The translations under genes were made by a program, and so were the position numbers. A stretch of DNA of 64,000 nucleotides from Desulfobacteraceae bacterium (GTDB lineage Bacteria; Desulfobacterota; Desulfobacteria; Desulfobacterales; RPRI01), in contig JAABQB010000007.1 of the NCBI GenBank assembly GCA_011391695.1, positions 1-64,000 of the forward strand, read 5' to 3'. Of the stretch, positions 7,781-57,137 are shown piece after piece. The notes beneath the pieces are model-generated. The model had not been told where the DNA came from. It searched no databases and saw only the letters and a list, made by a program, of their open reading frames with translations. Each line of letters starts with the position of its first letter. Within the stretch, counting starts at the first letter, position 1.

Positions 7781-7790
7781 TTAATAGTGG

Positions 7791-7938
7791 CGGCTTTGTA
7801 AAAAGTCATTCTGCTGTGTTGCACTTCATCTTTCGTCATTGCAGCGTACGAAAAGTACGCTTCATTCCTCAAGATTTGTGCGCCTTGCATAATGAGCTTT
7901 TTACTTTGCCGTCTAAAAGGTGATTTTTTACAAAGCCG
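7791..7938. repeat. Intergenic inverted-repeat element (family 1, copy A) between dctP and dctQ
   Basis: CGGCTTTGTAAAAAGTCA (7791-7808) is the inverted partner of TGATTTTTTACAAAGCCG (7921-7938), 1 mismatch. Shares TCATTCTGC.GTGTT and CATAATGAGCTTTTTACTTTGCCGTC with the copy at 56305-56374. Confidence 0.8.
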
Positions 7939-41879: not shown

Positions 41880-42034
41880 GAGCCAATTGCAAAAGTCGTC
41901 ATTCCCGTGCAAACGGGAATCCAGGAATTTTTGCAGCATATTGAAAAGGCTGGATAGCGCTGGTGCTTCGCTATGTGCCCCACTTTCGTGGGAATGACAA
42001 ATTCTTCTCTTTTTAGGGCTTTTGTAATTGGCTC
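41880..42034. repeat. Intergenic TIR element (family 2, copy E) abutting the etfA stop
   Basis: GAGCCAATTGCAAAAGT (41880-41896) / GCTTTTGTAATTGGCTC (42018-42034); the core aligns with the reverse complement of 54271-54404. Confidence 0.85.
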
Positions 42035-52897: not shown

Positions 52898-53941
52898 TTA
52901 AATCCATTTTATCTGTTCGTGTGAAGTTTTTCTTTCTGCAATATCTCCTATGATAAAGGCCTTTTCATTTATGGCGCTAAAGCGTTCCATTATTTCCTGC
53001 GCCGATTTTTCAGGGACGATTGCCACCATGCCGATTCCGTTATTAAATGTTTTCATCATCTCTTCTCCTGAGATATTTCCGGCCTCTTGCAGAAAATGGA
53101 AGACAGGGGGTATCTCCCAGCTCCCCTTCACGATTCTTACCATGCACGTTTCGGGAATTATACGGATAATATTTTCCGACAACCCTCCTCCCGTGATGTG
53201 GGCAAGGCCGTGAATTGGCAACTCCTTTAAAAAGCTCAAGATTATTTCCGAATATATCCGTGTGGGAGTGAGAAGCTCTTCTCCTATGGTTTTCCCGAGT
53301 TCAGGCACGTATGAGTCTGTTTTTAATTTCAGAACATCAAAACATATCTTCCGGGCAAGCGAATATCCATTGCTGTGAAGCCCGCTTGATGAGATTCCTA
53401 TAAGTTTGTGCCCCATGCGAATGCCGGAACCGTCAATAATTTTGTTATAGTCAACAATTCCAACGGCAAATCCGGCAAGATCATACTCGTTCTTCTTGTA
53501 AAATCCGGGCATTTCTGCTGTTTCACCGCCTAAAAGCGCGCACTTGGCCTGTTTGCATCCTTCTGCAATACCCGTAATAACATCAGCGGCGATTCCTGTA
53601 TCAAGCTCTCCCGTGGCAAAGTAATCAAGGAAGAAGAGAGGTTCAGCGCCCTGAACTATGATGTCATTAACACTCATGGCAACAAGATCGATGCCAACAG
53701 TATCGTGTTTGCCCATCATGAAGGCTACTTTAAGTTTTGTGCCGACTCCGTCGGTTGAGCTGACAAGAACTGGTTTCTGCAGGTTAGTCGTGTTGATTGA
53801 AAAAAGTCCGCCAAATCCTCCGATTTCACCTATTACACCGGGCCTCATTGTCTTTTTGGCAATTTCCCTTATTGATTCAACCAGCTTGTTTGCTTTTTCA
53901 ATGTTTACGCCCGCATCTGCGTAAGTGAGCGAATCGGTCAT
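52898..53941 (-). CDS. purM: Phosphoribosylformylglycinamidine cyclo-ligase PurM
   Basis: 347 aa; LTYADAGVNIEKANKLVE, STDGVGTKLKVA and HITGGGLSENIIRI. Confidence 0.96.
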   Translation of the reverse strand: MTDSLTYADAGVNIEKANKLVESIREIAKKTMRPGVIGEIGGFGGLFSINTTNLQKPVLVSSTDGVGTKLKVAFMMGKHDTVGIDLVAMSVNDIIVQGAEPLFFLDYFATGELDTGIAADVITGIAEGCKQAKCALLGGETAEMPGFYKKNEYDLAGFAVGIVDYNKIIDGSGIRMGHKLIGISSSGLHSNGYSLARKICFDVLKLKTDSYVPELGKTIGEELLTPTRIYSEIILSFLKELPIHGLAHITGGGLSENIIRIIPETCMVRIVKGSWEIPPVFHFLQEAGNISGEEMMKTFNNGIGMVAIVPEKSAQEIMERFSAINEKAFIIGDIAERKTSHEQIKWI

Positions 53942-54207
53942 TTAAAACTCCATTTCGTTTATAAAATAAGCAAGCCTGAAAAGAGGTTGCCGTAACTGCA
54001 ATGCCTTACAATATTCAACCTTGCATCCACCGCGCAAAATAGCTGTCCAACAGGAATATGCAAGGTGAACCGGCTTGTTTGGGTATGCATTATTAAGGTA
54101 AGCATATCAGACTTGCTTGTTGAAAGTTGCGGAAATCTAAAACGATTCGTAATAAAAGTCAAAACAATTTTTTTGACTTGTTATGCAGGATATTGTAACT
54201 AAACCTA

Positions 54208-54483
54208 ACGGCTTCGTAAAAGGTCAGGATCTCACACCAAGCCACAAAGATCACAAAGTTAACATATTTGGAGGTAATTGCAAAAGTGATAAAAAGGAAA
54301 AAGCTTGTCATTCCCACGGAAGTGGGAATCCAGTTTTTATCAATATGTTGCAAAAATTTCTGGATTCCCGTTTGCACGGGAATGACGACTTTTGCAATTA
54401 CCTCTTTGTGTTAAAAGTTTTTTTCTTAGTGCCCTTCGTGCCTTTGTGAGAAAAAGGCAAATTTTGACTTGTTACGAAGCCGT
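54208..54483. repeat. Large intergenic inverted repeat (family 1-like, element C), interrupted by element D
   Basis: ACGGCTTCGTAAAAGGTCA (54208-54226) / TGACTTGTTACGAAGCCGT (54465-54483), 17/19 match; arms carry CACAAAG-type repeats. Confidence 0.8.
54271..54404. repeat. Intergenic TIR element (family 2, copy D) nested in element C
   Basis: Perfect 17-bp TIR GAGGTAATTGCAAAAGT (54271-54287) / ACTTTTGCAATTACCTC (54388-54404), flanked by TTTG on both sides. Confidence 0.85.
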
Positions 54484-54518
54484 CAACTTTAACAATATGA
54501 AACAGATGAGGCTGTGAT

Positions 54519-55688
54519 ATGAAGAGTAACTTTGCCAGGCTTGACCGTTTACCCCCGTATGTTTTTGCAACCGTCAACAGGATTAAAATGGATGCGAGAC
54601 ATGCCGGAGAGGACATAATAGATCTTGGAATGGGAAATCCGGATCTCGGAACCCCGCAGCATATTGTTGAAAAGCTTACCGAGGCTGCCCAGAAGGCGCA
54701 CAACCACCGTTATTCCGCTTCAATGGGCATCACCAAGCTCAGAATGGCCATAGCGGGATGGTACAAGAGAAGGTTTGATGTCGATATCGACCCTGACAAT
54801 GAGGCGATTGTTACAATAGGAGTTAAGGAGGGATTATCGCATCTTATTCTTGTCACAATACGCCCCGGCGATGTTATATTCACCCCCACGCCGACTTATC
54901 CTATTCATCCTTACTCGGCGATCATTGCAGGAGGAGATGTCCGGGGAATTCCGGTCGGACCCGGTTGCGATTTTTTTGAGAACCTTATAACTGCCACAAG
55001 GCAAACATGGCCTAAGCCAAAGGTTCTCATCATAAGCTATCCCCATAACCCGACCACCGAAGTTGTGAATATCGAATTTTTCGAGAAGATAGTCGATTAC
55101 GCGAAGGAGCATAATATAATGGTCATTCATGATTTCGCGTATGCTGACCTTATATTTGACGGTTATAAAGCTCCGAGCTTTCTTCAGGTGAAAGGCGCGA
55201 AAGATGTTGGAGTAGAATTCTTCTCTCTTTCAAAAAGCTACAGTATGCCGGGCTGGCGTGTAGGTTTCTGTGTCGGAAATCCGGATATCGTTGCAGCTTT
55301 GCGCAGGATCAAAAGCTACCTTGATTATGGTGTATTTCAGCCGATACAGATAGCCTCCATTATTGCACTAAACGGGCCCCAGGATTGCGTTCAGGAAATA
55401 TGCGACACCTATAAGGAGCGAAGAGACGCCCTTATAAACGGTCTCGGCCGGGTTGGCTGGGACATTAAAAGCCCGAAAGGGACAATGTTCGTGTGGGGGA
55501 AAATTCCTGATAAACATCTCAAGATGGGGTCGGTCGAATTTTCAAAGTTTCTTATCAAGGAGGCGCAGGTGGCTGTTGCACCGGGTCTCGGTTTCGGCGA
55601 GTACGGGGATGAATACGTCCGCTTTGCTCTCATAGAAAATACAATGCGCATTAATCAGGCAGTGCGCGGAATCAAAAAGATTCTATAG
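54519..55688 (+). CDS. Class I/II PLP aminotransferase (LL-DAP-aminotransferase/AlaC-like)
   Basis: 389 aa; [19 protein letters not shown] and [19 protein letters not shown] (PLP Lys). Confidence 0.92.
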
Positions 55689-55840
55689 AGCCAATTGCGA
55701 AAGTATGTTTCCCCTCCCTTGATGGGAGGGGATTAAGGGGAGGGTGAGATAAAACTCATTGATAATTATTGTTTTTCCCCCTCACCCTAACCCTCTCCCG
55801 CAAGGGGAGAGGGGATTATTGAGACTTTTGCAATTGGCTC
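55688..55840. repeat. Intergenic TIR element (family 2 ends, different core; copy F) abutting the aminotransferase stop
   Basis: GAGCCAATTGCGAAAGT (55688-55704) / ACTTTTGCAATTGGCTC (55824-55840); core is a CCCTCACCCTAACCCTCTCCC-type palindrome. Confidence 0.85.
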
Positions 55841-56249: not shown

Positions 56250-56304
56250 AAATTCAATTCTCCTTTCAATTCACATAAAACCAGATATATAAATCCGAAA
56301 TCCA

Positions 56305-56374
56305 GACGGCAAAGTAAAAAGCTCATTATGATAGGTGTGCGAAACACCGCAGAATGACTTTTTGCGAAGCCGTC
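56305..56374. repeat. Intergenic inverted-repeat element (family 1, copy B)
   Basis: GACGGCAAAGTAAAAAGCTCATT...AATGACTTTTTGCGAAGCCGTC; reverse complement aligns with both ends of copy A at 7791; right end overlaps the fabG stop. Confidence 0.8.
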
Positions 56375-57137
56375 ATATATACATTCCACCGCTTACATGA
56401 ATAACCTGGCCGGTAATATAGCAGGCTCCTTCGGAAGCGAGGAAAAGAACCGCTGCCGCCACATCTTCCGGTTTACCGGCCCGCCCCAGCGGCACTTGTC
56501 CCAGCATGGCTTCTCTGGTCTTGTCCGAAAGAACGGCCGTCATATCCGTCTCAATAAAACCTGGGGCAACCGCATTGACGGTGATATTCCGTGGGGCAAG
56601 TTCTTTTGCCGCAGTTTTTGTGAGCCCGATGATTCCGGCCTTGGATGCCGCGTAGTTTGCCTGCCCGGCATTTCCGGTGACGCCGACAACGGACGCGATG
56701 TTGATGATACGGCCGTATCGTTGTTTCATCATGGTCTTGGCGGCAATTTTTGTGCAATAAAATGTTCCCTTTAAATTGACGGAGATGACGTCATCCCAGT
56801 CCTTTTCATTCATGCGAACCAAAAGCCCGTCTTTGGTAATGCCGGCATTGTTTACGAGAACATCTATTCGATCGGTTTCCCCTGTTATTTTTTCAAAAAA
56901 TGCTGTGACCTCCTCTTTCGAGGCTACATTGACGCTGATTCCAGCTGCCGATCCACCGGCGGCGGCAACGAGTTTTTCGGTTTCGTCTGCCGCTGCTTTT
57001 TCGACTGCCTCATTGCCGGGGGAGAAATAATTAAAATATATCCGGGCGTCCGGCCCGGCCAGCGCCAGACAAATGGCTCGTCCGATTCCTCTTGAACCGC
57101 CGGTTATCACTACTGTGCGTTTTATATTATCCGCCAT
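56373..57137 (-). CDS. fabG: 3-oxoacyl-ACP reductase FabG
   Basis: 254 aa SDR; TGGSRGIGRAI, NNAGITKDGLLVRM, YAASKAGIIGLTK and VAPGFIETDMT. Confidence 0.93.
   Translation of the reverse strand: MADNIKRTVVITGGSRGIGRAICLALAGPDARIYFNYFSPGNEAVEKAAADETEKLVAAAGGSAAGISVNVASKEEVTAFFEKITGETDRIDVLVNNAGITKDGLLVRMNEKDWDDVISVNLKGTFYCTKIAAKTMMKQRYGRIINIASVVGVTGNAGQANYAASKAGIIGLTKTAAKELAPRNITVNAVAPGFIETDMTAVLSDKTREAMLGQVPLGRAGKPEDVAAAVLFLASEGACYITGQVIHVSGGMYI

Follow-up and report, generated by a model that had tools for sequence, protein, structure and literature searches.

MITEs, REPs and related repeats in bacteria

The closest known counterparts of the element described here, referred to as D, are the bacterial MITEs, including Chunjie of Geobacter uraniireducens, Nezha, Correia/NEMIS and RUP (PMC10969869, PMC3733652), to which it is likened by general features, being short (mostly 60–200 bp here), non-coding, hairpin-forming and multi-copy, with TIRs and TSDs. 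It differs from these named elements in that its interior is often a pair of REP units and in that the same interior occurs in two TIR shells. The BOX, RUP and SPRITE repeats of pneumococci (PMC3049150) represent a comparable system whose host group is not that of D. Also relevant are the CGTC-tagged REPs, named dRS3 in Neisseria, which carry the tag, an 8–9 bp stem opening with complementary A-T, a 4–5 nt loop and a CCA tail, and form head-to-head dimers (PMC3733652). These REPs seem to have no transposase dedicated to them, and transposases of many kinds may mobilise them (PMC3733652). Among complete insertion sequences, ISPse1 of the IS1182 family combines 16/16 (16-bp) IRs with a 4-bp duplication (PMC3281130).

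Element D and its insertion site

The locus lies within a 64,000-nucleotide stretch of DNA (the window, contig C94) of a Desulfobacteraceae genome (G000; 2.8 Mb, 116 contigs, 98% complete) that is fragmented and apparently a MAG; genome-wide counts rest on pattern matching, DNA searches and individual stretches retrieved from this assembly. Direct reading confirmed exactly the coordinates, perfect TIRs and flanking TTTG reported for D in the first-pass annotation. Briefly, the 134-bp element (54271–54404, forward strand) is bounded by the 17-bp TIR GAGGTAATTGCAAAAGT at 54271–54287 on the forward and 54388–54404 on the reverse strand (complementarity 17/17), the ends being given as GAGSYAATTGCAAAAGT and the TIR query as GAGCCAATTGCAAAAGT, and a copy of TTTG adjoins it on each side (54267–54270 and 54405–54408). 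D is nested in the apical loop of a second hairpin element, C, whose outer arms pair 54200–54226 with 54465–54491; the 292-nt strand from 54200 to 54491 gave a single-strand fold z of -9.2, and 0/200 shuffles were equally stable. A search against Rfam returned sub-threshold matches only, the best being a similarity of 54288–54415 to Wolbachia sRNA 46 (28 of 65 bits), which possibly reflects common CGTC-REP palindromes.

This arrangement is very probably explained by D being a MITE that inserted with a 4-bp TSD into the AT-rich loop of C and was moved in trans by an IS1182/IS5-like transposase. C, as a 4-bp-TSD MITE, would already have been present between a divergent AIR-synthase-related gene (52898–53941, reverse strand; PF00586/PF02769) and an aminotransferase class I/II gene (54519–55688, forward strand; PF00155, E 1.3e-57), and D would then have entered its AT-rich apical loop, duplicating TTTG. 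Catalysis would have been provided in trans by a DUF772 + DDE_Tnp_1 transposase recognising the ends of D, and the landing at a hairpin tip would reflect an AT-rich intergenic site, not recognition of the hairpin.

The D family in its own genome

About 50–60 copies of D are present in G000, where the TIR at up to two mismatches was matched 57 times forward and 54 times in reverse (control, 3 and 3). The curated paired copies number 49 and measure 70–187 bp; exact 4-bp direct repeats flank 20 of them, whereas 2000 shufflings of the right flanks gave 1.05 on average and never more than 6; the other 29 are without an exact TSD. Only the 4-bp register is enriched, per-position flank identity being 0.66 there and 0.24–0.36 in the other registers, and TSD length is consistent across copies. 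The proposal of a transposition-like insertion with a 4-bp target duplication, made in the first-pass annotation from the window copy, therefore agrees with both the TTTG flanks and the family-wide statistic, and the MITE-like nature claimed for D is equally borne out by a short, non-coding element with TIRs, fixed-length TSDs, dispersed copies and element-free sites, the latter represented by D-free copies of C and D-free orthologous loci. The duplicated targets follow no single motif (TATC, AAAT, CTAT, TCAA, CAGA, TTTG and others) and are AT-rich, the AT content being 75% over 12 bp to either side, 59% at a distance of 100–200 bp and 53% in the window.

Two further family members lie in the window on the forward strand, namely a 155-bp copy with a REP-pair core placed after a gene stop codon (41880–42034) and a 153-bp copy at 55688–55840, which exemplifies a second core type (CCCTCTCCC), has no TSD and probably carries swapped flanks. 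The idea that the insertion is recent and D perhaps still mobile is supported only in part: the window copy is 81–93% identical to the other 133/134-bp copies, and present mobility in this genome is unproven because no matching transposase was found there. D-type elements flanked by 4-bp TSDs, their TIRs identical or nearly so, also occur in genus mates, and the eleven 133-bp copies of one of these (G008, L133–L149), with a mean mutual identity of 98%, point to a more recent burst than that of G000.

Host element C and the orthologous locus

The window copy of C consists of a left arm (GGATCTCACACCAAGCCACAAAGATCACAAAGTTAACATAT, 54226–54266, forward strand) with 90–98% identity to about 20 D-free C copies, a right arm (54409–54454, forward strand) likewise recognised from these copies, and the outer TIRs of what is termed the C/B shell, TAACGGCTTCGTAAAAGGTC at 54206–54225 on the forward and TGACGGCTTCGTAACAAGTC at 54466–54485 on the reverse strand. 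The D-free copies, which the first-pass annotation had suggested looking for, were retrieved by DNA search at about 20 loci of G000, so that C does not invariably contain D. In most of them the tip is GTTAACATATTAATATTAAA or near it, and the aligned copies read ...CACAAAGTTAACATATTAATATTAAATG...CTTTGTGAGAAAATATAG... Removal of D and one TTTG from the window copy gives the tip GTTAACATATTTGTGTTAAA, which in the same alignment region reads GTTAACATATTTGTGTTAAAAG. The claim that this removal restores the tip of C was accordingly upheld for its length, which equals that of the D-free copies; in sequence it differs from them by three substitutions, all clustered at the junction, which are attributed, short of proof, to earlier divergence of the window copy. 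A pattern search of G000 for empty C as CACAAAGTTAAC...TGTTA gave no match because the real C tips differ from it.

The inverted-repeat ends of C (TGAYGGNNTCGTAAAAA), together with 4-bp duplications at several copies (L057 ATTC, L056 ATCC, L082 GTTT, L084 AGTA, L085 ATTT and L088 TTTT), identify C as a second MITE, likewise with 4-bp TSDs. Two further elements with a C/B-type outer repeat (TGACGGCTTCGTAAAAAGTC) are found in the window at 7788–7914 and 56304–56375, with one match to the repeat each (7788–7807 and 56356–56375) and a different interior (CATTCTGCTGTGTT...).

Comparison with the orthologous locus in genus mates revealed the same gene pair separated by a short intergenic region with neither C nor D in G002, G007, G008 and G009. 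In G003, whose flanking DNA is 91–93% identical to the window, the site is occupied by another hairpin element, and its right junction (TACGAAGCCGTCAACTTTAACAATATGAAACAGA) is that of the window copy. Since the right end of the window copy (TTTTGACTTGTTACGAAGCCGTCAACTTTAACA) departs from the C consensus and matches this G003 element, the window copy is a hybrid between C and an element that was at the locus beforehand. A further MITE-like insert in the same gene interval was also seen in G003 (L112, G003:C160), with the ends GAGACCTCTGC...GCAAAGGTCTC and an apparent 5-bp duplication, AAACA. A block TTTGAC...ATATTGTAACTAA just upstream is conserved in most orthologous loci; it was not among the results of a simple promoter scan. 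If this block is, as its conservation may suggest, the aminotransferase promoter, the nested hairpins would sit in the aminotransferase leader.

Target choice and exchange between copies

The first-pass annotation had also raised the possibility that D targets hairpins, recognising cruciforms or hairpin tips and hence the apex of C. The position of the window copy within a hairpin tip fits this reading, as do three further copies (L011, L066 and L024) that adjoin a C half-arm at its apex, which is above random expectation. However, an intact hairpin surrounds the window copy only, and the left flank of L066 (..CTATTA) and the right flank of L024 (ATTAAAATAATATTTTC..) resemble halves of a single C and fit as one filled copy with the TSD ATTA, so that there were probably fewer events than apparent, maybe one. 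Complementarity of the left flank to the reverse-complemented right flank over the 49 sites was at the null level (mean 6.67 versus 7.01 when shuffled), and the C tip is AT-rich like the other targets of D (75% AT), which makes hairpin recognition unlikely and leaves insertion into AT-rich DNA as the preferred explanation.

Homologous recombination between D copies (gene conversion) would offer another way of placing D in C without transposition, and flanks that look exchanged are seen in some copies, as between 55688 and contig C70 and between L066 and L024. In the former case, G003 has a homoserine-dehydrogenase-like gene (a name given by eye from sequence) immediately after the aminotransferase gene, but in G000 the end of the aminotransferase gene meets the TSD-less D copy at 55688–55840, and the homoserine-dehydrogenase-like gene is found on contig C70, which begins inside a D copy (C70:1–64; the two loci are L062/L322) and continues with TATA, which is also the 4-bp sequence in front of the 55688 copy. 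Either the flanks were relocated by D–D recombination or a misjoin arose at D during assembly, and the window to the right of 55840 may therefore be misjoined; more generally, misjoins or rearrangements in this genome may be due to MITEs of about 150 bp. The nested locus itself is unaffected, because its TSD, both C arms and the synteny of its flanks with G003 on both sides are intact. A TSD is not created by exchange between copies, and the matching TSDs of the window copy, held between both arms of C, render recombination a very improbable origin of the nesting. That C and D form a single composite moving as a unit, with D as its centre, accords with the position of D near the middle of C and is otherwise refuted, to the point of being negligible, by about 20 C copies without D, by nearly all 49 D copies lying outside C and by the TSD that D carries of its own inside C.

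Candidate parent transposase

A transposase with matching ends was sought, as the first-pass annotation had proposed; none was found in G000, and such enzymes were found elsewhere. A parent IS in the same genome is usual for a MITE and not strictly required. G000 (98% complete) yielded no PF01609, PF13751 (DDE_Tnp_1, DDE_Tnp_1_6 or related) or L214-like transposase (L214 being described below), no parent IS with TIRs matching those of D, and no transposase with D ends between distant unpaired TIRs; the one transposase fragment near such TIRs (L078, IS3-type by eye) was rejected as it is not bracketed by D TIRs.

An exact search with GAGCCAATTGCAAAAGT, covering one genome per species, revealed, among the matches listed, D-type TIR pairs with 4-bp TSDs in MAGs of Kiritimatiellota, Lentisphaeria, Calditrichaeota, Mariprofundus, Syntrophus and Spirochaetaceae. 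In a Chlamydiae MAG, a 1455-bp element with D-type TIRs (L214) encodes a 381-aa transposase with DUF772 (PF05598) and DDE_Tnp_1 (PF01609), whose best NCBIfam models are IS1182 and IS5, both below curated cut-offs; its IS1182 score, though the best match, is 96.7 bits against a cut-off of 270, below the threshold for the IS1182 family proper. An intact 384-aa homologue lies between GAGCTTCTTGCAAAATT and AATTTTGCAAGAGGCTC in a genome of the same order (L289, G076), and a decayed one between GAGGTAATTTCAAAAGT and AGTTTTGAAATTAGCTC in a genus mate (L291, G002), both with TIRs that are divergent from those of D but recognisable. A clean 4-bp TSD is absent from all three of these transposase-bearing elements, and no homologue of the L214 transposase was found in G008. 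The bracketing of such a transposase by D-type TIRs, intact in L214 and L289 and decayed in L291, suggests that an IS1182/IS5-like (DUF772 + DDE_Tnp_1) enzyme is the likely mobiliser of D, which differs from these insertion sequences in having no coding region. As a mechanism, mobilisation of a MITE in trans by such an enzyme has good support, which does not extend to present activity in G000.

Among DDE_Tnp_1 loci of the genus, the only pair of D TIRs (L176) was rejected as belonging to another hairpin family (GAGCCACTTTCAAAACG) without TSD. This other family has related ends and a long palindromic core, and was observed at L176, L177 and L186 (G006, G002). A domain search of the genus additionally detected Y1_Tnp (RAYT-type) transposases.

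The REP-pair core as cargo

The interior of D contains two CGTC-type (dRS3-like) REP units as described in PMC3733652, GTCATTCCCACGGAAGTGGGAATCCAG at 54307–54333 on the forward strand and GTCATTCCCGTGCAAACGGGAATCCAG at 54360–54386 on the reverse strand, arranged head-to-head. They form GTC-ATTCCC...GGGAAT-CCAG pairs, with stem and loop lengths judged by eye, and resemble the CGTC-tagged REPs in their head-to-head GTCATTCCC...GGGAATCCAG units with CCA-type tails; unlike those, the D-family pairs sit within TIR shells with TSDs. The interior being such a pair, the ends of D form a shell and the REPs its cargo.

G000 holds 84 CGTC-type REPs by pattern search (control, 1). Thirty-three REP pairs could be classified, of which 18 lie in a D shell, both TIRs being present in 15, 13 lie in a C/B shell, both TIRs being present in 8, and 2 lie in neither; the resulting fraction of 31/33 inside either MITE shell, against a background of about 2% per flank, is provisional, as some of the loci came from the searches for D and C and the patterns that define the shells are loose. 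Comparison of L311, L314–L316, L340, L358, L362 and L367 with D copies shows one CGTC-REP core in two unrelated shells, with 4-bp TSDs in several cases. Pairs that look CGTC-type are also enclosed by D shells in Syntrophus and Smithella (L253, L258, L217, L232 and L242), and those of Lentisphaeria and Kiritimatiellota contain other palindromes.

A nested MITE as such is an ordinary case; the value of this one lies in a clean insertion accompanied by a set of empty sites in the same genome, and the D TIR provides a handle for locating the parent IS. We tentatively consider it quite possible that CGTC-REP pairs spread as cargo of MITE shells (D, GAGCCAATTGCAAAAGT; C/B, TGAYGGNNTCGTAAAAA; 4-bp TSDs each) that move when ordinary transposases act on the ends of the shell, and the D and C/B shells are thus a candidate route for the spread of REPs that have no transposase of their own.
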